Shown here: piece after piece, positions 3,614-30,545 of the stretch
Numbering within the stretch: position 1 is the first letter of the stretch
Layout: each line of letters opens with the position of its first letter
Source of the DNA: Patiriisocius marinistellae
GTDB lineage: Bacteria; Bacteroidota; Bacteroidia; Flavobacteriales; Flavobacteriaceae
Direction: 5' to 3'
Assembly (NCBI RefSeq): GCF_009014635.1
Contig: NZ_BKCF01000001.1
Location: forward strand, 248,001 to 312,000
Length of the DNA: 64,000 bases
Program-made: the position numbers and the translations under genes
The notes under the pieces: generated by a model
Seen by the model: the letters and a program-made list of their open reading frames with translations, nothing else
The model's database searches: none
Told to the model about the DNA's origin: nothing

Positions 3614-5404
3614 CTATTTTTGAAAATGAGTTATAATCTTCTTTGCCCTACTCGCTCCTACTACCTTTGCTAAGTCTTCAAAACTGGCCTCACCAACTCG
3701 CTTTGTACTTTTAAATTTCCGAAGTAATTCTATGGAGGTTTTTTCTCCAATTCCCGGTATGGACTCTAGCGTATTGTTTAATGCTTCTTTGCTTCTAAGC
3801 TGGCGGTGAAATGTGATACCAAAACGGTGCGCCTCATTCCTTAATTGTTGGATAATCTTTAAAGTTTCGCTTTTTTTATCAATATACAAAGGGACAGGGT
3901 CATCTGGATAGAATAACTCCTCTAATCTTTTTGCAATTCCTATAATTGCAATTTTTCCTCGCAACTCTAGAGCGTCAAGTGCTTTTAAAGAAGATGACAA
4001 TTGTCCTTTACCTCCATCTATAATTATAAGCTGTGGCAAGGGCTGTCCCTCCTCTTTTAGCCTTTTATACCTGCGATAGACCACCTCTTCCATCGAGGCA
4101 AAATCATCTGGACCTACTACAGTTTTAATATGAAATTTACGATAGTCTTTTTTACTTGGTTTTCCGTCTTTAAATACTACGCATGCAGCAACAGGATTTG
4201 TTCCTTGAATATTACTATTATCAAAGCATTCAATATGGCGTGGCTCTTCACTTAAACGTAAATCTATTTTCATTTGTGCCATAATTCTATTAGCATGCCT
4301 GTCTGGATCTACAATTTTAGCTTGCTTAAAACGCTCCATTCTATAATACTTGGCGTTACGAATAGAGAGATCGAGTATTTTCTTTTTATCTCCTAGTTTA
4401 GGAATATGAAAACTTATACCTGCTTCAAGATTAATTTTGAATGGAAGGTACACTTCTTTTGATTGTGAGTTAAAACGTTGTCGCAATTCCACTACCGCAA
4501 GCTCTAACAACTCAGCATCACTCTCATCTAGTTTTTTCTTTATCTCTAGGGTATGACTTCTAATAATTGCACCAAAACTTAATTGCAAAAAATTGACATA
4601 ACCATAGCTTTCATCACTAATGACACTAAATACATCAACATTATTAATTTTAGGATTTACAACCGTAGATTTAGCTTGATAATTTTCCAGCACATCTATT
4701 TTGTCTTTAATTCGCTGGGCATCTTCATACAGCATTTCTTCAGCATACTGTTTCATTTGGGTTTTAAATCTAACTAGAGACTCTTTAAAATTCCCTTTTA
4801 CAATATTTCGGATTGCTTCAATATTTTCATTGTATTCGGTTTCAGAATAAAGCCCCTCACATGGCCCAGCACAATTACCTAAATGATATTCTAAACACAC
4901 TTTATACTTGCCGTCTCTTATTTTATCTTCGGCTAAATCATAATTGCAGGTACGCAAATTATACAAGCCTTTAATTAAATCTAGCAACGTGTGTACAGTT
5001 TTCATACTCGTGTACGGCCCGTAATATTCACTACCATCTTTTATAAGGCGGCGTGTGGGGAATACACGTGGAAAACGTTCGTTTTTAATACAAATCCAAG
5101 GATACGATTTATCATCTTTAAGCAGTACGTTATACTTAGGCTGGTATTTTTTAATAAGATTATTCTCTAACAGAAGAGCATCAGTCTCCGTAGCTACCAC
5201 AATATGTTTAATATCAACAATACGCTTAACAAGCATGCGCGTACGTGCATTATCATGCTTTTTAGTAAAATAACTATTAACGCGTTTCTTCAAATTTTTT
5301 GCTTTCCCTACATACAATAACTTCCCATCTTTATCATAATATTGATAAACTCCGGGAGAGTCTGGAAGCGTAGAAATTTGTAAGGTAACAGAAGCTTGAG
5401 CCAT
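3614..5404 (-). CDS. uvrC: Excinuclease ABC subunit C
   Basis: UvrC makes both incisions in nucleotide excision repair after UvrAB loads on damage. The 596-residue protein has the GIY-YIG nuclease domain at the N-terminus (LPDSPGVYQYY ... LLYVGKAKNLKKRV), the Cys-containing segment (CLEYHLGNCAGPC), a UVR-like helix pair near 205-235, the RNase H-like C-terminal nuclease (IECFDNSNIQGTNPVAACVVF and LIIIDGGKGQL, with acidic residues in place) and a final helix-hairpin-helix (LESIPGIGEKTSIELL). Length is normal. A -7-like box lies exactly 4 nt before the ATG, so the mRNA may be leaderless. The call is firm. Confidence 0.97.
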   Translation of the reverse strand: MAQASVTLQISTLPDSPGVYQYYDKDGKLLYVGKAKNLKKRVNSYFTKKHDNARTRMLVKRIVDIKHIVVATETDALLLENNLIKKYQPKYNVLLKDDKSYPWICIKNERFPRVFPTRRLIKDGSEYYGPYTSMKTVHTLLDLIKGLYNLRTCNYDLAEDKIRDGKYKVCLEYHLGNCAGPCEGLYSETEYNENIEAIRNIVKGNFKESLVRFKTQMKQYAEEMLYEDAQRIKDKIDVLENYQAKSTVVNPKINNVDVFSVISDESYGYVNFLQLSFGAIIRSHTLEIKKKLDESDAELLELAVVELRQRFNSQSKEVYLPFKINLEAGISFHIPKLGDKKKILDLSIRNAKYYRMERFKQAKIVDPDRHANRIMAQMKIDLRLSEEPRHIECFDNSNIQGTNPVAACVVFKDGKPSKKDYRKFHIKTVVGPDDFASMEEVVYRRYKRLKEEGQPLPQLIIIDGGKGQLSSSLKALDALELRGKIAIIGIAKRLEELFYPDDPVPLYIDKKSETLKIIQQLRNEAHRFGITFHRQLRSKEALNNTLESIPGIGEKTSIELLRKFKSTKRVGEASFEDLAKVVGASRAKKIITHFQK

Positions 5405-5408
5405 AGCG

Positions 5409-5416
5409 TAAAGATA
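5409..5416 (-). promoter_or_regulatory. -7-like promoter box before uvrC, predicts leaderless mRNA
   Basis: On the minus strand the sequence TATCTTTA, a one-mismatch form of the Bacteroidetes -7 box TAnnTTTG, is followed by CGCT and then the uvrC ATG. The 4-nt spacing is the same as at 24321, 33439 and 52582. A start site at the A of the ATG would fit. No clear -33 TTTG was seen. Confidence 0.5.
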
Positions 5417-5613
5417 ATGGCTTTCCTTTTTTTAGCAGAAATTTTAAGGGTGCAATAAATGTTAATTTATATAAAAATTTGTCCTTAAATTTCAAGAAAG
5501 AGACTATTAAAGTCTTGATTGAGTATTATCATTAATCTATAAAAAGGAATGTTTCACCTGTTAATAAAGGGTTAAATGCACAATAAATAAAACCTAATGT
5601 TAAGCACTTGCGT

Positions 5614-5634
5614 AGTTTTACTAAGTATAAAACT
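5614..5634 (+). promoter_or_regulatory. Inverted repeat, possible operator of the His-rich/TonB operon
   Basis: A perfect inverted repeat with 7-bp arms AGTTTTA and TAAAACT and a 7-bp centre ends 2 nt before the start codon of the His-rich gene. It could be a repressor site or a small hairpin at the start codon. A metal-responsive Fur/Zur-type regulator is a guess based only on the neighbouring genes. AT-rich inverted repeats of this size can arise by chance. Confidence 0.35.
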
Positions 5635-5636
5635 CA

Positions 5637-6029
5637 ATGCACCAACCGCTCACTTTTTTAAAAAACACTATAATTGTCTTCTTGGCAACGTCTTATCTAT
5701 TGACGCCACTTGCTGAAGCTATTGTAGAGGGGATGCATAAATTTTCGCATGCAGTGTCAAAATCGACAGCGCACCACCATCACGGCAACCACCATAATGC
5801 ACATGGCCACGAACACGAGACTATTTCATTTATAGCCGAGCTTTTTTCAGACAAACAGCAAAATAATAACAACGATAAAATTCCGTCGGTTAAAATAGAC
5901 AAGCATTTTTCTGAAATTTCTTACTCATTAAAAACCCCCGAAAGAATATTTAGAACTCATAATTTTAACTACGAGTTCAATGAAGTCACATTTCCGAAGT
6001 CCTTAGACGCTCCACCTCCCGAAGTATAA
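5637..6029 (+). CDS. Small His-rich exported protein upstream of TonB receptor
   Basis: This 130-residue protein starts with a hydrophobic segment (about 8-28, KNTIIVFLATSYLLTPLAEA) that looks like a signal peptide or anchor. A histidine cluster follows at about 46-60 (HHHHGNHHNAHGHEHE), then a charged region ending in DAPPPEV. The cluster suggests binding of a transition metal such as zinc, copper, nickel or cobalt. It lies 101 bp before a TonB-dependent receptor on the same strand, and the two are probably co-transcribed. The layout recalls small His-rich periplasmic proteins beside metal-linked TonB receptors in Bacteroidetes. The family was not recognised with certainty and the metal is unknown. 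Confidence 0.75.
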   Translation: MHQPLTFLKNTIIVFLATSYLLTPLAEAIVEGMHKFSHAVSKSTAHHHHGNHHNAHGHEHETISFIAELFSDKQQNNNNDKIPSVKIDKHFSEISYSLKTPERIFRTHNFNYEFNEVTFPKSLDAPPPEV

Positions 6030-6130: not shown

Positions 6131-8353
6131 ATGAAATTCAAATTATTATGGGGTGTACTACTTTGCTTTGCAACAATGCAAGCGCAATCGCTCAAGGGCA
6201 TTGTAGTAACCCAAAACAATATTCCACTTGTAGATGTGGCAATATTTAATGCTACAAAAGGTAGCCACTCACACACTAACCAAGCGGGAGAATTTACACT
6301 TGACAATGTCACGGTAAATGACAAAATATCTTGCTCCTATTTAGGATACGGTACCGTTTATTATACCGTAGAAGAAACAGATTTTAGCAACCCCGTTACT
6401 ATCACATTGACACAAGGTGCTGTTTCACTTTCTCAAATTGTACTTACTAACGAAATAAATACGCTTAACCAAATTGCAGCCGTTGACCTCAACAAAAATC
6501 CTGTAAAAAACACGCAAGAAGTATTGCGTCAAGTACCCGGATTATTTATAGGACAACACGCAGGAGGAGGAAAAGCAGAGCAAATTTTCCTACGTGGATT
6601 TGACATTGACCACGGGACAGATATTAGTCTTACCGTTGATGGAATGCCAGTAAACATGGTATCGCACGCGCACGGGCAAGGATATAGTGACCTTCACTTT
6701 TTAATCCCCGAAACGGTAAAAAATATTGAATTTGGGAAAGGTCCATATTATGCGAAAAAAGGAGATTTTACCACGGCAGGTTATGTTGACTTTAGCACAA
6801 AAGAACGGATTGACAACAGTAGTATATCTGTTGAATATGGCGATTTTGACTCTTTTAGAACTGTGGGATTATTCAACGTTTTAGACACTGAAAAAAGCGA
6901 CGCATATATTGCTGGGTCTTTTAATAGTTTTGATGGGCCGTATGACTCTCCTCAAAATTTTAACCGTATTAATTTAATGGGGAAATACTCTTATCAACTT
7001 CCTCAGGACCAGAAAGTAACAATTACCGCTTCGCATTTTCAAAGCAAATGGGATGCGAGTGGACAAATCCCGCAACGTGCCGTAGATGCTGGATTGATTG
7101 GACGTTTTGGCGCTATTGATGATACTGAGGGTGGTAATACGAGTCGATCAAACATCTTGATTGCCCATGAAAAGCAAATTTCAGAAACCAAAAAACTGGT
7201 AAGCAGCGCTTATTTTTCGCACTATGATTTTGAGTTGTTTTCAAACTTTACGTTTTTTCTCGAAGACCCTGTAAATGGCGACCAGATTCGTCAATTTGAA
7301 GACCGAAATTTAATGGGCTTTCAAACGGCGTTTACAGAACAAACATCATTGCTAGAAACACCTTTTGAATATACTGCCGGTGGTGGGTTACGATACGATG
7401 ATGTTGATGATATACAGTTATCCCGCACAAAAAACAGACAGGAATTACTAGAGCGTCTTGCCTTTGGTGATGTTAATCAAATGAATGCTTTTGCATTTTT
7501 GAATACGGAATTTGACTTCGGAAATTTTAAACTCAATCCAGGTGTGCGTCTTGATTATTTTAAATTCGATTATGTAAATAGATTGAGCGAATTGTATGAC
7601 AATAAAAGTGAATCAAAAGTTTTTGCGAGTCCAAAACTGAACTTGTTTTACAAAGCAAATAACAACATTCAATTGTTTTTAAAATCGGGTATTGGGTTTC
7701 ACTCAAACGATGCGCGCGTTGTTGTTGCTAATAGTGGCGAAGACATTTTACCCGCGGCCTACGGCGCAGATTTAGGTGGAATTTTTAGAGCCAATGACCG
7801 TCTTATTTTTAATGCTGCCTTGTGGACATTATTTTTAGACCAAGAATTTGTGTACGTGGGAGATGCCGGTATCGTTGAGCCTAGCGGAAAAACAAGACGT
7901 TTGGGCGTTGACGTTGGCGCACGTTTTGAAGCGCTGGACTGGTTGTACTTTTTTGGCGACATTAACTACACCTACGCAAGAAGCACCGAAGAGCCTAGTG
8001 GACAAGACTACATTCCGCTAGCGCCAGATTTAACGAGCACCGGTGGTGTTACTTTTGAGGATTTGCAAGGTTTTTCTGGCGGACTCAATTACCGCTATTT
8101 AAAAGACCGTGCGGCAAACGAGGACAACAGTATTATTGCCGAAGGGTATTTAGTGACAGATTTTAATGTGAATTACACATATAAGAATATAGATTTTGGA
8201 ATTATTATCGAAAATCTTTTTGATACCGAATGGAACGAAACCCAATTTGCTACAGAAAGCCGTTTATTCAATGAGCCAGAACCTGTGGAGGAAATTCATT
8301 TCACCCCGGGAACGCCTTTCTTTTTGAGAGGAAAAGTAACGGTGAACTTTTAA
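6131..8353 (+). CDS. TonB-dependent outer-membrane receptor, CarboxypepD_reg type
   Basis: This 740-residue protein has a signal peptide (1-19), a CarboxypepD_reg-like beta-sandwich at about 21-95 (LKGIVVTQNNIPLVDVAIFN), a plug domain at about 115-215 (VLRQVPGLFIG ... IFLRGFDIDHGT) and a 22-strand-type barrel that ends in TVNF. The plug holds the unusual stretch DGMPVNMVSHAHGQGYSDLH, rich in His, seen in a subfamily whose substrate I cannot name with confidence. With the His-rich protein just upstream, metal or metal-chelate import across the outer membrane is the best guess. A strong terminator follows at 8386. No SusD partner is present, which argues against glycan import. Confidence 0.9.
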   Translation: MKFKLLWGVLLCFATMQAQSLKGIVVTQNNIPLVDVAIFNATKGSHSHTNQAGEFTLDNVTVNDKISCSYLGYGTVYYTVEETDFSNPVTITLTQGAVSLSQIVLTNEINTLNQIAAVDLNKNPVKNTQEVLRQVPGLFIGQHAGGGKAEQIFLRGFDIDHGTDISLTVDGMPVNMVSHAHGQGYSDLHFLIPETVKNIEFGKGPYYAKKGDFTTAGYVDFSTKERIDNSSISVEYGDFDSFRTVGLFNVLDTEKSDAYIAGSFNSFDGPYDSPQNFNRINLMGKYSYQLPQDQKVTITASHFQSKWDASGQIPQRAVDAGLIGRFGAIDDTEGGNTSRSNILIAHEKQISETKKLVSSAYFSHYDFELFSNFTFFLEDPVNGDQIRQFEDRNLMGFQTAFTEQTSLLETPFEYTAGGGLRYDDVDDIQLSRTKNRQELLERLAFGDVNQMNAFAFLNTEFDFGNFKLNPGVRLDYFKFDYVNRLSELYDNKSESKVFASPKLNLFYKANNNIQLFLKSGIGFHSNDARVVVANSGEDILPAAYGADLGGIFRANDRLIFNAALWTLFLDQEFVYVGDAGIVEPSGKTRRLGVDVGARFEALDWLYFFGDINYTYARSTEEPSGQDYIPLAPDLTSTGGVTFEDLQGFSGGLNYRYLKDRAANEDNSIIAEGYLVTDFNVNYTYKNIDFGIIIENLFDTEWNETQFATESRLFNEPEPVEEIHFTPGTPFFLRGKVTVNF

Positions 8354-21186: not shown

Positions 21187-21469
21187 TTGTGGTTCTGTAT
21201 TTTTACCTTGATTTTTCAAAAGCTTTTCAAAGAGTTTTTTTTGAATTCTGAAATTTTAAATGCATTAAAATTTCAGAATCAATTATATTCCATTTTAAGG
21301 GTGCGAATTTACAGAATTTTGATTTAAATGTATAGTAGTAAAACTATTCATAACTATAGCAAACAAAATAATTGAATTGCGGTTAATTATGTTACATATA
21401 CCTACGTTCGTGCTACTAATCAAAATTACCTTATTTTTAAACTTCACTAACTACCATTATTTTAGTCTT

Positions 21470-23515
21470 ATGTTTAAAAAATACCTCGCAACCATTTTCC
21501 TGTTGCTATTTTGTATGGGCATTCCCCCTGTCAACGCGCAAGACGAAATTTCTATTGAAGAGCGTATTGAAAAACTAATGCAACTTGTTGAAAATTCTGA
21601 AGGTATTGAAAAACTACAATGGCTAGACAGTCTTTCAAATATAATTGCCTACGATACAAATTTTATGAATGATAGTATTGTACTCACAACTATAAAATTT
21701 GCTAAAAAATTAGACTCGTTCAACACAGCAACTTGGCACATTGCCAATGAAATTTATCATCTAAACTCAAGAAAAGGAACGCCAGAAAAATCGAAAGAAT
21801 TATTTCTAAAATCGATGAAACATAGAGCGAAAGTAAATGACCCCAATGTGCTATGTAAATACTTTTATGAAGGTGGAAATACGCATTACTTTTTAGGTGA
21901 ATTTGAAACAGCGCTACAACTTTTTGACAGCACTTTTATACAAGCTAAAAGAGCAAATAACAATCGTTTTATTGGGCTAGCTAAGCTAGGAAAAGGGCAG
22001 GTCTACACAGATTCTGGAGACTTTGGCAACGCATCTTTAACGTTACAGGACGCTATAAAATTCTTTACCATAAAACAAGATTCTACAAGTATTATCGAGG
22101 CTAAAAATTCGTTGTCAATTTTATATAGCAAAAATGGTTTTTATGATGAAGCAGAGACAGAACGAAACGAGATAATCAAATTCGAAGTTGCCGGTGGGCA
22201 TTTCAATACATTACCAGCAGTATATTATAATGCAGCTGCAGATTACAATAAACAGGATAGACAAATGGATAGAATTGTCTCCTTAAAATTATCACTGGAA
22301 GCAGCTAGAAAGTCTGACCATATAAATTTTTATGAGCCCATCATGTTAACGGGACTTATTGCTGCATATGCTGAAAATGATAGTTTACAAGAGGCAAAAT
22401 TTTATTTAAAAAAAATATACAAAAATAAAGAGCAAAATACTTCTGGACAGTTTAGGGACTATTATCTGGGCGCTATTAAAAATATGGCATTCGCCGAAAT
22501 GGAGTACTCAAAAGCAATAGAGTATGGCACCGAATATTTAAAATCAAAACGCCAAGGAAAACAATACGAAGAAATACAAGCTGCCGAAAAATTTTTGGCT
22601 AAGGTGTATCAAACCATTGGAGAAAAAGGGAAGGCGTTTGACCATTATATTGAATATTCTAAAATAAAGGATAGTATTGAAAATGCTAAAAAAGTACGCG
22701 TGCTATCTTATTACCAAACCATCTATGAAACTGAAAAACTTGATTTAAAAATTAAAGCGCAACAAAAAGATATTGCGTTTATTAATGAAATGAACAAGGT
22801 GAGAATGCAATGGTTTTTCTTGGTTATACTTTTGTTAATTGGAATTTTTGGGGTTTTCTGGTTAGCTCGCTCTCGAAATTACGCAAGAAATAAACAAAAA
22901 CTTCAAGAAGAATTCACTAAGGATGTTTTAAAGACGCAGGAAAAAGAGCGTGCTCGCATTGCGGGTGAACTTCACGATAGCGTGGGTCAAAAATTATTGA
23001 TACTTAAAAACTCCTTAGTTCAAAAAGACAATGGGGATAAAAAGGAGATAGATTTAGTGGGCGATACCATTAAAGAGGTGAGAGAGATGAGCCATGGTTT
23101 ACATCCGTTTCAGTTTGAGAAATTGGGGCTTGTGCAATCACTTAAGAACATGGTGGAGACATTTCAGAAAAACTCAAACATTTTTTATTCCGAAGATATT
23201 GAAATTGAATACTTAAAATTTCCGAAGGAAAAAGAAATATACGTATTTAGAATGTTACAAGAAGCCATAACTAATGTTGAAAAACATAGTGATGCAACGG
23301 CATGTAATCTTACTGCAACAGAAAGTAACAATCAAATAATTTTTATATTAAAAGACAATGGAAAAGGTTTTGATTTAAATAAAAATACCACTGAATGGAA
23401 AGGATTAGGCATGAAAACTCTAGAAGAAAGAGCACGGTTTATTGATGCAAATTTACAAATAGACTCCCTCCCACACAAAGGTACGACCATCACGCTAAAA
23501 ATACCAATAAAATGA
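21470..23515 (+). CDS. TPR-containing sensor histidine kinase, HisKA_3 type
   Basis: The ATG at 21470 gives a proper signal peptide (MFKKYLATIFLLLFCMGIPPVNAQ) and 681 residues; the longer frame from 21377 adds an unlikely 31-residue leader. The sensor part (about 30-430) is built of TPR-like helical repeats and is predicted to be periplasmic. One membrane segment lies near 446-468 (WFFLVILLLIGIFGVFWLA). The dimerisation/phosphoacceptor motif ERARIAGELHDSVGQ follows (His near 502), then an HATPase domain (LQEAITNVEKHS, DNGKGFD, KGLGMKTLEERA). It overlaps the LuxR-type response regulator by 4 bp. The TPR sensor probably reads a protein or envelope signal. Confidence 0.92.
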   Translation: MFKKYLATIFLLLFCMGIPPVNAQDEISIEERIEKLMQLVENSEGIEKLQWLDSLSNIIAYDTNFMNDSIVLTTIKFAKKLDSFNTATWHIANEIYHLNSRKGTPEKSKELFLKSMKHRAKVNDPNVLCKYFYEGGNTHYFLGEFETALQLFDSTFIQAKRANNNRFIGLAKLGKGQVYTDSGDFGNASLTLQDAIKFFTIKQDSTSIIEAKNSLSILYSKNGFYDEAETERNEIIKFEVAGGHFNTLPAVYYNAAADYNKQDRQMDRIVSLKLSLEAARKSDHINFYEPIMLTGLIAAYAENDSLQEAKFYLKKIYKNKEQNTSGQFRDYYLGAIKNMAFAEMEYSKAIEYGTEYLKSKRQGKQYEEIQAAEKFLAKVYQTIGEKGKAFDHYIEYSKIKDSIENAKKVRVLSYYQTIYETEKLDLKIKAQQKDIAFINEMNKVRMQWFFLVILLLIGIFGVFWLARSRNYARNKQKLQEEFTKDVLKTQEKERARIAGELHDSVGQKLLILKNSLVQKDNGDKKEIDLVGDTIKEVREMSHGLHPFQFEKLGLVQSLKNMVETFQKNSNIFYSEDIEIEYLKFPKEKEIYVFRMLQEAITNVEKHSDATACNLTATESNNQIIFILKDNGKGFDLNKNTTEWKGLGMKTLEERARFIDANLQIDSLPHKGTTITLKIPIK

Positions 23516-24138
23516 ATTCTACAATTGTTATAGCAGACGACCACCCCATATTATTAACTGGTACAAAAGCTTTTTTAGAAAGTAAAAATTTTACTATTCT
23601 AGCAACTGCGATGGATGGAAATGATGCTTATAATAAAATTGTAAAATATGAACCCCATGTGGCAATTTTGGACTTTGATATGCCCAAACTCAATGGCTTA
23701 GAAGTCGCAAAAGAATGTCAGTCTAACAATATTGACGTTATAATTATAATATTGACCTTATTTAAGGAGGAAGCAATTTTACAGGAAATAGGAAAATCAA
23801 TTCAAGGGTATTTGTTAAAAGAAGACGCCCTTCAAGAAATTGAACTTTGTATTAAAAAGGTTTTGTCTGGAGAAACCTTCGTGAGTAAAAATATTGAATC
23901 TGGCATTCATTTTCCGGCAAGTAGCGAAGAGCTAAACAACCTCACCATTGCCGAATCTAAAATATTGCGTTACCTAGCAAAAAACTTTTCTTCATCTCAA
24001 ATTGCCGAAGAACTCTTTATCTCAAAACGAACGGTAGAAAAACACCGAAGCAACATTATTAAAAAACTAGAAATCCCACCGTCTCAAAATGGTTTATTGC
24101 TTTGGGTGCAAAAACATCCTGAGCTTTTTCAGGAGTAG
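23512..24138 (+). CDS. LuxR/NarL-family response regulator
   Basis: This 208-residue protein has a receiver domain (ADDHP with acidic residues 9-10, phosphoacceptor Asp54 in AILDFDMP, Lys in YLLKED) and a C-terminal LuxR helix-turn-helix (ESKILRYLAKNFSSSQIAEELFISKRTVEKHRSNIIKKL). It starts inside the kinase stop codon (ATGA overlap), so the two form a cognate pair. Its recognition-helix region SKRTVEKHRSNIIKKL is identical to that of the solo LuxR protein encoded 195 bp downstream. Both may therefore read the same DNA site, and the paired palindromes at 24282 and 24578 are the obvious candidates. Confidence 0.94.
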   Translation: MNSTIVIADDHPILLTGTKAFLESKNFTILATAMDGNDAYNKIVKYEPHVAILDFDMPKLNGLEVAKECQSNNIDVIIIILTLFKEEAILQEIGKSIQGYLLKEDALQEIELCIKKVLSGETFVSKNIESGIHFPASSEELNNLTIAESKILRYLAKNFSSSQIAEELFISKRTVEKHRSNIIKKLEIPPSQNGLLLWVQKHPELFQE

Positions 24139-24281: not shown

Positions 24282-24299
24282 TACGTAGGTCTACGTATT
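24282..24299 (+). promoter_or_regulatory. Palindromic operator candidate, copy A (before solo luxR)
   Basis: TACGTAGGTCTACGTATT contains the inverted arms TACGTAG and CTACGTA around GT. The same 18 bases recur at 24578. In both places exactly 21 nt separate the repeat from a -7-like box. The position, just upstream of the -33 region, suits an activator site bound by a LuxR dimer. Confidence 0.75.
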
Positions 24300-24320
24300 C
24301 CACAGCCCGCTACTTGCATT

Positions 24321-24328
24321 TACCTTTG
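24321..24328 (+). promoter_or_regulatory. -7 box of solo luxR gene, predicts leaderless mRNA
   Basis: TACCTTTG is a perfect TAnnTTTG box, followed by TGTT and the ATG at 24333. The 4-nt gap predicts transcription starting at the start codon. Confidence 0.6.
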
Positions 24329-24332
24329 TGTT

Positions 24333-24572
24333 ATGGCATCTAACCACCCCATATCACGAACATCAAGAAAGAAACTCGCCGCGTTAAGCTCGACCGAAAT
24401 TGTTATTCTTAAGCTAATAAAACTTGGTTGCACTTCCATTCAAATTGCTGAGCGTAGAGATTGTTCTAAACGCACTGTAGAGAAACACCGTAGTAATATT
24501 ATTAAGAAATTAGGTTTAACCTCTTCGCAACAGGCGCTATATTTCTATTTAATGAAAAACCCTGATTTTTAG
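24333..24572 (+). CDS. Small solo LuxR-type helix-turn-helix regulator
   Basis: The start at 24333 (MASNHPISRTSRKKL) gives a 79-residue protein that is little more than a LuxR DNA-binding domain (LSSTEIVILKLIKLGCTSIQIAERRDCSKRTVEKHRSNIIKKLGLTSS, split here only by the protein's end). There is no receiver domain. A longer frame from 24240 would run through the palindromic repeat and the -7 box and is rejected. The recognition segment matches that of the upstream response regulator. The gene is flanked on both sides by the same 18-bp palindrome, suggesting it activates or represses itself and the 1968-residue exoprotein gene downstream. Confidence 0.85.
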   Translation: MASNHPISRTSRKKLAALSSTEIVILKLIKLGCTSIQIAERRDCSKRTVEKHRSNIIKKLGLTSSQQALYFYLMKNPDF

Positions 24573-24577
24573 CACAC

Positions 24578-24595
24578 TACGTAGGTCTACGTATT
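24578..24595 (+). promoter_or_regulatory. Palindromic operator candidate, copy B (before FG-GAP gene)
   Basis: An exact second copy of the 18-bp sequence at 24282, starting 5 bp after the solo luxR stop codon and 43 bp before the ATG of the giant secreted protein. The distance to the following -7-like box is again 21 nt. No further copy was found in the window. Confidence 0.75.
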
Positions 24596-24616
24596 GTTTT
24601 TAAAACCTAGGAGCTA

Positions 24617-24624
24617 TATCTTTA
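24617..24624 (+). promoter_or_regulatory. -7-like box before FG-GAP gene
   Basis: TATCTTTA fits TAnnTTTG with one mismatch. It lies 21 nt after operator copy B and 14 nt before the ATG at 24639. The equal spacing at copy A supports its reality. Confidence 0.5.
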
Positions 24625-24638
24625 AAAAAACTTAAATT

Positions 24639-27600
24639 ATGAATAATTTTCACAAAAATCTGTTGCCACTTTACATCCTGTTACTTTTTAGTATTTCTTC
24701 AATTGCTCAGGCATCATTCGTAGGCACAGTTCCTGGAAGCGGAGGTCAAAATATTGCGGCAAATACGAATATAGAAATATTTTTAATCCCTGGACCTATA
24801 GATAATGCCACCGTAAATTCTAATAATATTATTGTTTTAGGTTCTCAGTCTGGTATTCATTCCGGGGTCTTCAGTTCTTTCGATTCTTCATCATCTAGTG
24901 TTACGTTTAATCCTTCTCAGGATTTTTTACCTGGAGAATTGGTTACAATCCACGTTACTGATGGAGTGATGAGCGGTGGTGATGCAATAAATGGTCCTGG
25001 AATGGATAGTTTTACCATCGTTGGTGCTCCACTCGATCCAGCAGGGTCTAGTTATTTTCAAACAATTATTGATGCTCCAAATAATCTTATTAATGACGAT
25101 GCCACAACGTTAGTTGATCTTAATGGCGATGACAATCTCGATATTGTAACAATAATACAAAATGAAGGAGCAGTTTGGTATCAAAATAGTGGAGGGTTAG
25201 ATCTTGTATATACAAAGCAACCTCTTTTATCACCTAATGATGATTCAATTAGTCATATAGTGACAGGAGATATTAATGGAGATGGTGATATAGATTTTAT
25301 TGCAGCAAATAATGATGAAGAAGTTTATTGGTATGAGAGTAGCGGTGGGTTAAACCCTACATTTACGGCTCATTTAGTTAGTGATCCTGGTTTTCCTATG
25401 ACAAATTTTTTCTTCTTTCGTTCACTTAATGTTGGAGATTTAAATAATGATGGCGAATTAGACATTATTGTGGGGACAATAGATGGTCTTTATACATTTG
25501 AAAACAACGGTAATGGCAACTCATTTTCTCGAAATACTCTAATAACAGATAGAGTTCAAGAGGTTGTAGTGAGAGACTTAGATAGAGATAATGATTTAGA
25601 TATTATAGTAATAACTGCAATAATTGTAAGTGGGTCTTTTGAATATTCACTACGGTGGTTTAATAATAATGGAAATGAAAACCCTAGCTTTACAAATACA
25701 TTTATTGATGATACGGAAGTAGTATTTGACCTTATAGTTGGTGAAATATCTGGGGATAACGCTCTTGATATTGTTATACGCCAAAACCAAAGTCCAAGAA
25801 TAAGGAAATTTACTAACAATGGTGCAAATACTTTTACAGCAGGTGCAATAAATCTATCAACTCAATACACCTCTATTGCCTTAGCAGATTTTGATGGAGA
25901 TGGGGATCAAGATTTAATGGCAAATAGAAGTTTTTCTCCTAGTTTTACGACTATTTTTTATAACAGTGGTAGCGGTTCATTTAGTTCATCGAGCATTGGG
26001 TCTACAATTTTAGCTGGAAATATTCTAAAAGGAGATATTGATGGAGATGCTGATATTGATGCAGTTTTAGTCCGCTCTAATAATCTAGCATTTCTAAGAA
26101 CCAATCTGAGCAAACCTAACTTGTTAACTACAACACCCGTATTTAATGGCCTTAATATTTCAGCAGATAGTAATATTACTTTCAACTTTGACGCAGCAGT
26201 GAATGCTGGCTTAAATCCAGTTAATTCAATTATAATATGTGGCTCACAATCTGGTGAAATAACGGGAGACCTTACTGGAGTAAATACGGCAACGCTTACA
26301 TTTAACCCAACCAAAAACTTCACTGCAAATGAGATTGTTAGTATTAGTATTACAAATGATTTAGTATTAAACCCGTCCACTTTTACTTTTACCTTAGGTG
26401 TTAGTCCATTGAGTCCAGGAGAATTTACAAATGATCAAAACAACATTACAACAACTGCAGACTTTGCATGGGATGTTGAATCTGCAGATCTCGATGGCGA
26501 TGGAGATTTAGATGTAATTTCGTCTTCGCTTGGAGCTGATACTGTTGGCTGGTATGCTAATGATGGTTCCGGCAATTTTGGTGCGCTCAATACCATTTCA
26601 ACTACAATGGCAAATCCACGTGATGTTAGTTTAGGTGATCTTGATGGTGACGGTGATCTTGATGTTTTGGTAGCAGATAGTAGTTTGGACATAATTGGCT
26701 GGTTTGCAAATAATGGCTCAGGCACTTTTGGAAGCATACAAAATATTGCTACATCTCGTAACGACGCTTATAGCGTTACTGCAGCAGATTTAGATAATGA
26801 TGGTGATTTAGATGTCTTAACATCTTCTGATAATGGTGTAGAACGATTTACCAATGATGGCTCAGGTACATTTACGCTGGCACAAGTTGTAAACCCTTCA
26901 GATTCGCGTGGTGTATTCACAACAGATTTAGATAATGATGGCGATTTAGATATAATTGCAACATTTACCGATTTTGGTCAGGTAGCAAGATTTCTCAATG
27001 ATGGTACAGGTAATCTTGAAACTCCTAATATTGTAGCAAACTGGACATCTGGCATAAACACATTAGGCGTTTCATTAGCAGATGTGGATTTAGATGGCGA
27101 TATCGATGTGATTTCTTCTTCAAGTTTAGATGATGCTATATCTTGGTTTGCTAACGATGGTAACGGATTATTCTCTGCTTCTTCTGGAAATATAATTAGC
27201 ACGGCAAGTACTTTTATCACAGATATTACAAATGCAGATTTAGATGGTGATGGCGATTTTGATATTATTATATCCGATTTTAATGATGACCAAGTTACTT
27301 GGTTTGAAAATGACGGCTTAGGCGTTTTCGGAGCTTCAACAATAATCACATCTACCGCAGATGGTGCAAGAGCTGTTTCTGCTGCCGATTTAGATGGTGA
27401 TGGTGACGTAGATATCTTGTCAGCTTCACAAATAGATGATCGCATTGCGTGGTATGAAAATTTTGCATTTCAAATAGAAGACACTAATCCTACTATCCAC
27501 GCAATTAATGTTCCTGTTACGCAGGATATAATGCTTGGTTTTACTGAAGATGTAGATCCCTCTACAATCACTAATACAAACATAACAATTACAGGCAACC

Positions 27601-30545
27601 AAGGTTTTCCTTTAAGTTTTACACCAACCGTAATAGATACAGACGCAACTTTAAATCCTAACAGAGACTATTTTCCTGGTGAAAAAATTACTACGGTTGT
27701 TACTACGAATGTAGAAAATACAACAGGTTCAAATTTAGCCGATTCATATTCTTTTCAGTTTACTGCGGCGGTAAGTCCAGATAGTCCAGGCGAATTTCCT
27801 TTTGAACCTGAATTTTCTGGAGATACGGGTAGCTTTTATGATCTAATTCAAAAAGATTGGGATGGCGATGGTGATTTAGATTTTATAGGGAGAAATAATA
27901 CTAATGACGTAGAATTCGCCTGGTTTGAAAATGATGGCACCGGTTTACTTAGTGCGTCACAAAACTTAATAGATTTACCTGATGACATTGTAGATTTTAA
28001 AATTGGAGATATAAATGGTGACGGAAATTTAGATATCATTACATTCGATTATTCAAATACTGTTGAAGAAGTGATTTTTGGCTATTTCCCTAATGATGGT
28101 GCTAATGGAGTAAATGAAGAAATTATTATTGGCACCTATACTCTTATAGATAATGATGATGCCATATTCGCATTTGATATAGCCGATATTGATAACAACG
28201 GTCATCTTGACGTAATAGTTACAAATGATAATTTTGAAACCACTATTATATGGTATACTAACGATGGCAATGGAAACTTTAATGCTAACCAACTAACTTA
28301 TGATCTTTGGGCTGTAAGAAGTCTTAAAATCGCAGATATAAATAATGACGGAAATTTAGACCTAATTTTACCAGAATTTGGTACTAATGGATTTGTCTGG
28401 GTTGAAAATGATGGATTAGGATCTTTTGGCGAAGCTCATACAATTTCAACAATACCTTATGATTATCAAATTGCAGATTTAGATGGAGATGGAGATGTAG
28501 ATATAGTAACAGCAAGCGGTAGTTTTCCTGATTATGTAATAGGTTGGTTAGAAAATGATGGTCTTGGCGTATTCGAACCTATAGAAATAATTGATTCATT
28601 ATCTGGAAATATTAGGCTTGGTGATTTTGATGGTAATGGCAGTATAGATGTGCTTGTACAAATAGGCTCTAATGTTTTATATTGGTATGCTAACGATGGC
28701 TCAGGAAGTTTTGGGAATCGACAAGTTTTGCCAAATGGATTGTCTGCTTCTACACATTTTGATATTGGTGATATAGATAATGATGGTGATTTGGATATTT
28801 TAGGTGGGATTGGGAATGAAGCACATTATTTAGAAAATGCAGGGTTGGGTGAATGCACAGGTATTACCACAACATATACCATTGCCGATGGCTGGAACAA
28901 TGGAGTGCCCAGTGCAACAGATATTGCAATTATCTTAGAGGACTACAGCAGTTTCCTCGGAAATATAACAGCTTGTGAGCTTATTATTCAAAATGGAGCC
29001 ACGCTAACCATTGAAGCAGAAACCTTTGTGAGTGTAGAAAATGATATTACCGTTGATGGAATCTTACAAATAGCTCACACGGGAAGTCTTGTTCAAACAA
29101 ACAATGATGCAACAGTAATCAATAATGGTACTATAAATGTATATGTAACCACTCCCGAAGTAGCACCCAGAGATTTTATAATTTCTGGAAGCCCTATGAC
29201 CGCAGAAACACGAGAAGGAGTGCACAATGCATCCTTTAGAGTACTAGAGCATTCCACACTGGACTTTTTCCCTAACCCACTCGTCGATGACTTTTATGCT
29301 CCCAATACCGTTGCAAATTTTGCTAACACCAGTCTAGACGATTGGTCACAACACTCAGGAATTTTAAACCCCGCCGAAGGATACCTCGTATACCCACAGG
29401 CAAGTATTATAGACGGTAACCAGTCCTACAATCTTTTATTTGAACAAGGAACACTGAACAACGGCGTACACGAATATGCCATGGAGTACCATATAGACAA
29501 GAACTCCAGTCCTAATATATTGGCAAACCCCTACCCGTCTGCCATTGATGCCGAGAAATTTTTAATAGCAAATCCATTAATAGATGAAGTATATTTCTGG
29601 GAACACCTTACTGAGCCAGACAATACATTTCCAGGAGGTAGCTCGGCAAACTTTAGTATGGAGGATATCTCTATGTATAATATTTCTGGAGGGATTGCCG
29701 CAGGAACCCAAGCAATAAATGGAGGGACAGAACCTAATGGATTTATCGCTACTTCGCAAGGTTTTGGTGTAAAAGCAAATGCTGCAGGAACGGCTACCTT
29801 TAACAATAGCATGCGGGTAACAACGGGCAATAACACCCTACGTTCCCCTACGGCAGACAGAAATAGGATTTGGATAAAGATGGAATCCATGGACTACGAC
29901 TTGAGCAGTGAAACATTGATTGCCTTCGACCCCAATGCCACACAAGGTTTTGATGCCGGATATGATAGTGACCAGCTAGGGAGGATAGTATCGTTATATT
30001 CTCATTTGCCTAACGGCGAAATGTCACTTGGTATTCAAACAAGGGAACAATTTGACACTAGTATTCAGGTGCCCATGGGCTATGCATCACAAATCAATGA
30101 TGGAGAAACTTTTAAAATCACCGTCAAGAATATGGATGGGGCACAGCTAGAAAATGTTCAAGTATATCTCGTAGACACCTTTGAAAATTCCACCACAAAC
30201 CTTACTCAAGAAGGAATGTATATGTTTACTTCGGCAATGGGCAATTACCCAAATCGTTTTATACTTAAATTTATGGATGAAACAATTCTTGAAACTTCTG
30301 AAATTTTTAATGATGAAATTTCGATAGTGCCTAATCCTACTAAAGGTATATTATTTGTAAATTCAGTAAATGCAATCATCAAAAATATATCGGTTTTTGA
30401 TTTGCAAGGAAGATTGGTAAACAAGGTATTCGGAAATAAAACATACGATTTAAAGGTTGATATTTCAACATTAAGCAGCACTGTGTATTTCTTGCATATA
30501 AATACCGAAAATGGGTCGTTGATAAAGAAAATAATCAAAGAGTAA
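24639..30545 (+). CDS. Giant secreted FG-GAP/VCBS repeat protein with T9SS sorting domain
   Basis: The 1968-residue product has a signal peptide (1-23). Three Ig-like Big_5 modules (about 25-130, 487-585, 947-1045; pattern ITFNFDAAV, FTANEIVSISIT) alternate with long arrays of VCBS/FG-GAP units carrying calcium-binding-like DLDGDGDLDV motifs and WFANDGSG. From about 1404 comes a different beta-rich module (ITACELIIQNGATLTI, GNPMT-like ISGSPMTAETREGV), found in other flavobacterial adhesins. The end (about 1890-1968, ISIVPNPTKGILFV ... GSLIKKIIKE) is a type IX sorting domain. Probable role: calcium-stabilised surface adhesin or matrix protein. It lies directly downstream of a solo LuxR gene and the shared palindrome. 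Confidence 0.92.
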   Translation: MNNFHKNLLPLYILLLFSISSIAQASFVGTVPGSGGQNIAANTNIEIFLIPGPIDNATVNSNNIIVLGSQSGIHSGVFSSFDSSSSSVTFNPSQDFLPGELVTIHVTDGVMSGGDAINGPGMDSFTIVGAPLDPAGSSYFQTIIDAPNNLINDDATTLVDLNGDDNLDIVTIIQNEGAVWYQNSGGLDLVYTKQPLLSPNDDSISHIVTGDINGDGDIDFIAANNDEEVYWYESSGGLNPTFTAHLVSDPGFPMTNFFFFRSLNVGDLNNDGELDIIVGTIDGLYTFENNGNGNSFSRNTLITDRVQEVVVRDLDRDNDLDIIVITAIIVSGSFEYSLRWFNNNGNENPSFTNTFIDDTEVVFDLIVGEISGDNALDIVIRQNQSPRIRKFTNNGANTFTAGAINLSTQYTSIALADFDGDGDQDLMANRSFSPSFTTIFYNSGSGSFSSSSIGSTILAGNILKGDIDGDADIDAVLVRSNNLAFLRTNLSKPNLLTTTPVFNGLNISADSNITFNFDAAVNAGLNPVNSIIICGSQSGEITGDLTGVNTATLTFNPTKNFTANEIVSISITNDLVLNPSTFTFTLGVSPLSPGEFTNDQNNITTTADFAWDVESADLDGDGDLDVISSSLGADTVGWYANDGSGNFGALNTISTTMANPRDVSLGDLDGDGDLDVLVADSSLDIIGWFANNGSGTFGSIQNIATSRNDAYSVTAADLDNDGDLDVLTSSDNGVERFTNDGSGTFTLAQVVNPSDSRGVFTTDLDNDGDLDIIATFTDFGQVARFLNDGTGNLETPNIVANWTSGINTLGVSLADVDLDGDIDVISSSSLDDAISWFANDGNGLFSASSGNIISTASTFITDITNADLDGDGDFDIIISDFNDDQVTWFENDGLGVFGASTIITSTADGARAVSAADLDGDGDVDILSASQIDDRIAWYENFAFQIEDTNPTIHAINVPVTQDIMLGFTEDVDPSTITNTNITITGNQGFPLSFTPTVIDTDATLNPNRDYFPGEKITTVVTTNVENTTGSNLADSYSFQFTAAVSPDSPGEFPFEPEFSGDTGSFYDLIQKDWDGDGDLDFIGRNNTNDVEFAWFENDGTGLLSASQNLIDLPDDIVDFKIGDINGDGNLDIITFDYSNTVEEVIFGYFPNDGANGVNEEIIIGTYTLIDNDDAIFAFDIADIDNNGHLDVIVTNDNFETTIIWYTNDGNGNFNANQLTYDLWAVRSLKIADINNDGNLDLILPEFGTNGFVWVENDGLGSFGEAHTISTIPYDYQIADLDGDGDVDIVTASGSFPDYVIGWLENDGLGVFEPIEIIDSLSGNIRLGDFDGNGSIDVLVQIGSNVLYWYANDGSGSFGNRQVLPNGLSASTHFDIGDIDNDGDLDILGGIGNEAHYLENAGLGECTGITTTYTIADGWNNGVPSATDIAIILEDYSSFLGNITACELIIQNGATLTIEAETFVSVENDITVDGILQIAHTGSLVQTNNDATVINNGTINVYVTTPEVAPRDFIISGSPMTAETREGVHNASFRVLEHSTLDFFPNPLVDDFYAPNTVANFANTSLDDWSQHSGILNPAEGYLVYPQASIIDGNQSYNLLFEQGTLNNGVHEYAMEYHIDKNSSPNILANPYPSAIDAEKFLIANPLIDEVYFWEHLTEPDNTFPGGSSANFSMEDISMYNISGGIAAGTQAINGGTEPNGFIATSQGFGVKANAAGTATFNNSMRVTTGNNTLRSPTADRNRIWIKMESMDYDLSSETLIAFDPNATQGFDAGYDSDQLGRIVSLYSHLPNGEMSLGIQTREQFDTSIQVPMGYASQINDGETFKITVKNMDGAQLENVQVYLVDTFENSTTNLTQEGMYMFTSAMGNYPNRFILKFMDETILETSEIFNDEISIVPNPTKGILFVNSVNAIIKNISVFDLQGRLVNKVFGNKTYDLKVDISTLSSTVYFLHINTENGSLIKKIIKE

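Follow-up and report, generated by a model that had tools for sequence, protein, structure and literature searches.

A candidate operator class of NarL/FixJ-type response regulators at a solo luxR gene and a type IX secretion exoprotein gene of Patiriisocius marinistellae

Several described systems bear upon the locus presented here. GerE of B. subtilis is a free-standing helix-turn-helix (HTH) protein, CsgD is a LuxR/FixJ-family regulator of curli in enterobacteria, GacA is a NarL/FixJ-type regulator linked with the Rsm small RNAs, and quorum-sensing LuxR solos carry an autoinducer-binding domain ahead of their HTH. To our knowledge, how Bacteroidetes choose the cargo of the type IX secretion system (T9SS) for the cell surface is largely open. 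The current study concerns a locus within a 64,000-nt stretch of the P. marinistellae genome (hereafter the window; NZ_BKCF01000001.1, positions 248,001 to 312,000), in which two identical palindromes flank a solo luxR gene downstream of a two-component pair. We consider it rather likely that these palindromes serve as operators of the NarL/FixJ-type response regulator encoded alongside them, the first copy controlling the solo luxR gene and the second a giant T9SS exoprotein gene, and that both represent, at this locus, an operator class of wider distribution.

The locus resembles each of these systems only in part. Like GerE, the solo is a free-standing HTH protein, but it lies between two presumed operators beside a two-component pair whose regulator has the same recognition helix. 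As with CsgD, a LuxR/FixJ-family class of regulator has a presumed operator ahead of curli genes, whereas the operator, the receiver and the promoter are all different. The PorX/PorY/SigP pathway likewise ties two-component control to type IX secretion, although the accounts consulted describe it for the secretion machine, whereas here it is the cargo genes that bear the operator. NarL of E. coli, in the sections of PMC7419079 consulted, combines a receiver with a GerE HTH and acts at ogt and yeaR through 7-2-7 heptamers located at about -44, upstream of the core element. Those traits are matched here, the position being a predicted one, while the heptamer (TACGTAG), the Bacteroidetes -7 promoter, and presumed targets among surface-protein, curli and small-RNA genes instead of nitrate genes set the present locus apart.

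The palindromes and their promoter geometry

The 18-mer TACGTAGGTCTACGTATT occurs as two identical copies at 24282-24299 and 24578-24595. A sequence-only reading had described them as twin 18-bp palindromes at equal distances from -7 boxes; their coordinates and identity are borne out, whereas the strict palindrome measures 16 bp, with the 7-2-7 form TACGTAG-GT-CTACGTA, a central GT that is not symmetric, and a terminal TT that is common to both copies but lies outside the palindrome. The putative operators, neither of which is assigned a strand, thus span 24282..24297 and 24578..24593, the latter separated from the solo stop codon by a 5-bp gap. When the window was scanned with the 16-mer TACGTAGGTCTACGTA at up to three mismatches, five matches were obtained (the two sites on both strands plus a three-mismatch match at 21393), as compared to 0.16 on average and no more than 2 in any of 100 shuffles. 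The twin palindromes are no chance repeat. Furthermore, exact copies of TACGTAGNNCTACGTA in the window's own genome are limited to these two, rather than the many random copies that had been named among the possible objections to an operator.

Counting confirms that each 18-mer ends exactly 21 nt before a -7 box. The box of the solo luxR promoter, TACCTTTG (24321..24328, plus strand), matches the Bacteroidetes sigma-A motif TAnnTTTG exactly, while that of the exoprotein promoter, TATCTTTA (24617..24624, plus strand), has one mismatch. According to the sections of PMC9723704 consulted, the TAnnTTTG box of F. psychrophilum occupies -12 to -5, and leaderless mRNAs account for 5.5% of its mapped mRNAs. 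By this spacing, the predicted solo transcription start is 24333, the A of its ATG, which predicts a leaderless mRNA, and that of the exoprotein gene is 24629, which leaves a 10-nt leader. With these two starts, both palindromes would be centered at -43.5. According to PMC7419079, which also supplied our definition of the 7-2-7 operator class, the site through which E. coli NarL activates ogt is of the 7-2-7 form as well, is placed at -44.5 and abuts the -35 element. The inverted heptamers, the 2-bp spacer and the proximity to the promoter core give both palindromes the form of a NarL-type operator, with binding itself being presumed.

The same element recurs well beyond the window, in genomes of a family that we take to be Flavobacteriaceae from named relatives such as Aquimarina and Tamlana. 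Exact TACGTAGNNCTACGTA was found at 150 sites (the sum of our table) in 51 of 299 family genomes, with at most 15 per genome, whereas a reversed control pattern yielded two sites, one in each of two genomes. We fetched 79 of the 150 sites together with their surroundings, from 34 of the 51 genomes and with the window's two included. Most fetched loci were picked by the exact site, hence their counts describe sites; the counts free of such choice are the 299-genome scan, the class-wide scan, the solo-profile scan, the surveys of Curlin_rpt, CsrA and the RNA model, and the 16-locus test, all given here or below. At the window spacing, i.e. offset 23 from the 16-mer, 48 of 158 site orientations have a TTT[GA] box, corresponding to 31 of 59 loci and 22 of 34 genomes, as compared to 3.88 of the 34 genomes on average, and no more than 10, for the other 69 offsets. 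Once the small-RNA sites and the window are excluded, the box stands at 23 in 17 of 43 sites and at 22 in 10, versus a mean of 3.5 for other offsets. Palindrome and promoter thus form a single element, and the earlier suggestion of one operator class at both promoters gains strong support from its recurrence in the family at a set distance from -7 boxes. The class-wide scan for TACGTANNNNTACGTA with a TTTR box was weak (matches in 25 of 395 genomes, and in 7 for the control) and is not our main evidence. We found no published report of this operator in the open-licence literature. In one other genome of the family (G564; G and L numbers denote genomes and loci), six copies of a related element are present, five of which have TACGTATAAATACGTATTG before the box, hinting at a lineage-specific operator variant.

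It would be very improbable for the palindromes to be hairpins, terminator parts or a small dispersed repeat, since they precede -7 boxes at a constant distance and stand ahead of different products. The second copy does have a predicted RNA fold of -4.4 kcal/mol (z -1.85), with TTGTTTTT after it, but neither site was flagged in the terminator scan, and a terminator or hairpin was rejected as the principal explanation. Some copies in two genomes do look like a dispersed repeat: G130 has near-identical promoter elements, each with an exact site, a TAACTTCG box and a conserved leader, ahead of different genes (L064, L065, L068), and in G141 GTACTTCG boxes are scattered ahead of different genes (L070, L073).

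The reader of the site and the solo cassette

The features of the locus succeed one another along the plus strand in the order kinase, response regulator, palindrome 1, solo luxR, palindrome 2, exoprotein. The sensor histidine kinase (21377..23515, start uncertain) has HisKA_3 and HATPase_c domains above the Pfam cut-off and a TPR region in which TPR_12 falls slightly under it. The response regulator (23512..24138, 208 aa) has the domains of the NarL/FixJ type, a receiver (Response_reg, 1e-18) and a GerE HTH (6.5e-14). All four receiver motifs (ADDHP, ILDFDMP, ILTLF and LLKED) are present and the acceptor aspartate is among them; residues D9/D10, D54, T82 and K103 sit within these usual motifs, and we take both residues and motifs to have their customary roles. 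The protein is not identified as NarL itself (NCBIfam PRK10651, 97.1 bits versus a cut-off of 250), its match to the CsgD model is weak (37.5 bits versus 250), and the PorX model is matched by the receiver part only (55.6 bits versus 300).

The open reading frame (ORF) listed for the solo starts at TTG 24240 and encodes 110 aa, which is probably too long. ATG 24333 is the likelier start (24333..24572, 79 aa), and with it palindrome 1 lies upstream of the gene and not inside. Pfam, applied to the longer 110-aa reading, detects GerE only and no autoinducer domain, and a quorum-sensing LuxR solo was rejected on these grounds. In a structure search with the solo, NarL was the only solved-structure match, at E 1e-4. 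The segment SKRTVEKHRSNIIKKL, said earlier to be common to the solo and the upstream response regulator, is indeed located in both, at residues 45-60 and 171-186, respectively.

Several lines of evidence connect the site to this type of HTH. A LuxR-type gene was detected within 800 bp of 41 of the 79 fetched sites. Three contexts are found repeatedly. In the first, small-RNA-like units stand between a regulator, itself preceded by an aspartyl-protease-like gene, and the odhB and sucA genes (the Pfam names of these genes were tested in L097 only); in the second, a kinase-regulator pair has a giant exoprotein (L078, L080) or smaller genes (L112) downstream of it; and in the third, larger kinase-regulator pairs are accompanied by sites with the centers GG, CC or GC (L108, L111, L113, L115). 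The regulators of these loci share the recognition helix pattern R-T-[VI]-E-K-H-[KR], in which Q replaces E in L111 and D does so in L220. To this can be added a sample of 16 loci (178,950 bp) that were picked by similarity to the solo/regulator HTH profile, independently of the site. TACGTA-N4-TACGTA at up to one mismatch was present in 15 of them, in 32 copies, whereas each of 23 other palindromic half-sites of equal base composition was present in no more than 3. Within the window's own genome, which encodes 14 GerE-type HTHs, an exact core lies within 1.5 kb of all three that carry RTVEKHRSNI and of none of the remaining 11. The three carriers are the window regulator, the solo and a second regulator at G000:C1:748310; because the first two have their sites in common, they represent only two independent loci. 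Among congeners, an RTVEKHRANI regulator (L301) has an exact-core site right downstream, while STVEKHRKNM regulators (L298, L300, L302) have none.

A different, non-LuxR-type transcription factor could in principle read the palindrome, and for 38 of the 79 sites the nearest LuxR-type gene is indeed over 800 bp away, or none was detected in what was fetched. However, the 15 of 16 regulator-similarity loci, the association with one helix type and not the other 11 in the window's genome, and the NarL-like 7-2-7 geometry make this quite unlikely, even with four right-helix regulators that have no nearby site. These four belong to a number of observations that weigh against our interpretation of the palindromes as operators of the regulator. 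They carry the same or nearly the same helix (L218; RTVEKHRSNII in L043 and L044; RTIEKHRSNII in the regulator-like gene of L299), and no near site is present in the fetched stretch, the best core matches having two to three mismatches. Exact TACGTAGNNCTACGTA is absent from 248 of the 299 family genomes, including two congeners; 12 of the 34 genomes lack TTT[GA] at offset 23; the sites at the larger kinase-regulator pairs of the third context have no clear box there; and for some sites of G107, G130 and G141 the genes behind them share no evident theme. Within the window's own genome, TACGTAGNNCTACGTA at up to two mismatches gives 8 matches versus 10 for a control pattern, and three mismatches plus a box give 26 and 20 versus 37 and 21 for the control, i.e. 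no excess, such that only the better sites carry weight.

On balance, the response regulator is the likely reader, and the solo probably reads the same site. Of the original proposal that one or both proteins recognize the operator, the part concerning the response regulator is thus the better supported, since many genomes in which no solo was seen have sites beside regulators of this helix type, while the part concerning the solo draws on its identical helix and on a cassette found in six genomes. We regard it as improbable that the response regulator reads the operators by itself, the solo having another target or none. Regulator-linked sites at many loci with no solo gene seen would be in keeping with this, but the solo lies between two sites in all six genomes and RTVE[KR]HRSN is kept in each of them.

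This cassette has the arrangement kinase, regulator, a first site with its box at 23 and an HTH-only gene, and a second site with the exoprotein, and is found in L039, L041, L042, L212 (G233) and L213 (G105) in addition to the window. An extra gene precedes the exoprotein in L213, while the contig of L041 breaks off within the next gene, where no sorting tail was seen. The first site has its box at offset 23 in all six, with one core mismatch in L212 and two in L213, and the octamers at 23 after the second site are TATCTTTA in the window, TAAATTTG in L041, GAGCTTTG in L210, TACCTTGC in L211, TAGCTTGC in L212 and TAGCTTCG in L213. With gene starts predicted from ATG-only ORF calls, only 3-4 nt separate the box from the ATG in the window, L041, L212 and L213, a gap short enough to predict leaderless translation in four of the six cassettes; in L042 the gap is 24 nt, and L039 apparently starts at GTG. 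A profile built from four solos, of which two came from genomes of the searched set other than the window's, gave matches in 189 of 397 family genomes, with solo-sized frames in five genomes among the matches listed.

The six solos measure 71-83 aa and fall on one side of a branch with support of 93/89 over 63 columns, which argues for an old gene with its own history; an independent local duplication in each genome is not favored for the same reason. In L039, L041 and L042 the palindrome contains the stop codon of the solo gene, and in L039 the stop codon of the regulator gene likewise falls within a palindrome, which suggests that an HTH together with its operator was once duplicated, anciently. 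In two loci (L078 4046-4200 and L080 10161-10310), the interval between two operators that holds the solo in the window has no solo gene but a short unit bearing a terminator-like hairpin, and a third operator stands ahead of a second giant T9SS gene.

Based upon these features, the following mechanism can be proposed. The kinase would phosphorylate the response regulator, a dimer of which would occupy TACGTAG-N2-CTACGTA at a center about 43.5 bp before the start, overlapping or abutting the -33 region, and judging from this geometry would activate sigma-A transcription from the -7 box. Operator 1 would thereby switch on the solo luxR gene and operator 2 the giant T9SS exoprotein gene. As the solo has the same recognition helix and no receiver, it probably binds the same operators without phosphorylation and may feed back upon them. 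Most likely, though far from securely, the solo amplifies or prolongs the response instead of acting as a competing brake, because the operator is at an activating position for NarL. As a brake, the solo would occupy the operators without productive RNA polymerase contact, compete with the phosphorylated regulator and limit the exoprotein. It is true that the solos keep the recognition helix while differing elsewhere from the regulators, and that their grouping (93/89) shows them to be more than a merely recent copy, but with both sites upstream of the box at a would-be activating position, we consider a brake unlikely, if still worth weighing. For the amplifying arrangement or otherwise, the cassette would be a natural case of an HTH-only protein inside a two-component circuit.

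Giant T9SS proteins, curli genes and small-RNA-like units

The wider class, TACGTA-N4-TACGTA, also appears ahead of other giant T9SS proteins and curli genes and, in relatives, ahead of small-RNA-like units near paralogous regulators. Tentatively, and with somewhat less than even confidence, we propose a single operator code, TACGTA-N4-TACGTA placed 23 bp from a -7 box and read by paralogous NarL-type regulators, that in Flavobacteriaceae-type bacteria would cover adhesin-like giants of the T9SS together with curli operons and a new, tandem small-RNA family, with a leaderless HTH-only feedback element gained in one lineage between the kinase pair and the giant cargo. The element would then tie T9SS giants, curli fibers and a small-RNA family unmatched in Rfam to one class of two-component regulators, and the operator may mark a common program for building the cell surface. 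A readable operator with a fixed promoter geometry would also render cargo control predictable from sequence.

The exoprotein gene of the window (24639..30545, plus strand) encodes 1968 aa, the length given by the sequence-only reading, and has FG-GAP-like repeats, three Big_5 Ig-like stretches and the C-terminal type A sorting domain of T9SS cargo (Por_Secre_tail 1.5e-12, TIGR04183 2.8e-13). A match to TcdB_toxin_midN lies below the Pfam threshold (20.1 versus a cut-off of 24.8); it is most likely due to the FG-GAP repeats and is no evidence of a toxin. Candidate targets in the window's genome come from the eight places matched at up to two mismatches, for which the control gives ten. Besides the solo luxR and the exoprotein genes, these places comprise a 38-aa peptide beside the second regulator (box CACATTTG at 23), a 2752-aa T9SS protein with HYR repeats (TATATTGC at 23), a 2611-aa T9SS protein with HYR and C-type-lectin domains (TATATTTG at 22), a csg-type operon encoding Curlin_rpt, CsgE and CsgF proteins (AATCTTTG at 22) and a 324-aa curlin-repeat protein (TATATTTA at 23). 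The eighth match lies inside an ORF that reads like ribosomal protein S12, and is taken as chance. The T9SS tail gave 79 matches in this genome, 76 over the cut-off and six in frames of at least 1900 aa; the operator stands ahead of three of these six, for which the upstream regions were examined. The suggestion that targets might prove to be T9SS cargo genes is thus upheld by near-matching sites ahead of two further giants (2752 and 2611 aa), to which curli genes are added. At the second kinase-regulator pair of this genome (L117, 3938-4016), the site precedes a 38-aa membrane-type peptide, and an aspartyl-protease-like gene, judged by its resemblance to that of L097, lies upstream of the pair. 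Phage tail-collar-type proteins are encoded near operator-bearing giant genes or sites in L227 (1550-2711), L214 (4669-5190), L215 (7495-8073), L101 and L102, the label being from Pfam Collar in L227 and from resemblance in the others.

The csg-type operon (L228 2022-6939) and the curlin-repeat gene (L226 4037-5086) each lie behind a core match or near-match. Of 100 family genomes, 21 gave a Curlin_rpt match, and 20 curli regions from 18 of these (242,520 bp, the three left out being G068, G093 and the window's genome) contain nine copies of TACGTA-N4-TACGTA at up to one mismatch, as compared to 0-3 for each of 23 palindromic half-sites of the same composition. The nine come from four regions (L269 four, L263 three, L268 one, L275 one), and the other 16 of the 20 have no site at this threshold. 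In L269, which encodes several curlin-type genes, TACGTG-N4-TACGTA is present at 7690, 13093, 14518 and 15966, three of the four sites being about 1.4 kb apart, and a TAnnTTTG box stands at 23 for all four. Among loci chosen by the exact site, L084, L086 and L088 have it between a large gene and curlin-type genes, with a TTTG box near the window spacing in L086 only, at 22. The large gene of L088 is a glutamine synthetase by Pfam, and the csg-type operon of the window's genome has the same neighbor.

Behind the element, many relatives have a unit that starts with GCUAUUAAU and often has a GGG-bearing hairpin, together with a terminator. A search behind the element returned 57 such units, of which L069 was dropped as false and one other could not be folded by the rule used. 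Compensatory change was seen in 9 of 12 terminator-stem pairs among 18 chosen sequences, and the units are presumably transcribed. With strict filters, a covariance model had matches in 49 of 149 family genomes and no match in the window's genome. Rfam returned nothing above gathering but tRNAs in 6 loci and three weak, chance-level matches in 15 loci. While tandem small-RNA-like units beside NarL/FixJ-type regulator genes, with a palindrome upstream of each, recall GacA/Rsm, the lack of a model match in the window's genome is a point of difference, as is CsrA, which was found in 0 of 60 family genomes versus 3 of 14 control genomes and whose titration by these RNAs is therefore unlikely. The tandem copies beside a response regulator gene, each with its own site and -7 box, are found in L076, L077, L097, L220, L223, L225 and others, and L222 has eight copies of the element (3703-5771), the first with two core mismatches.
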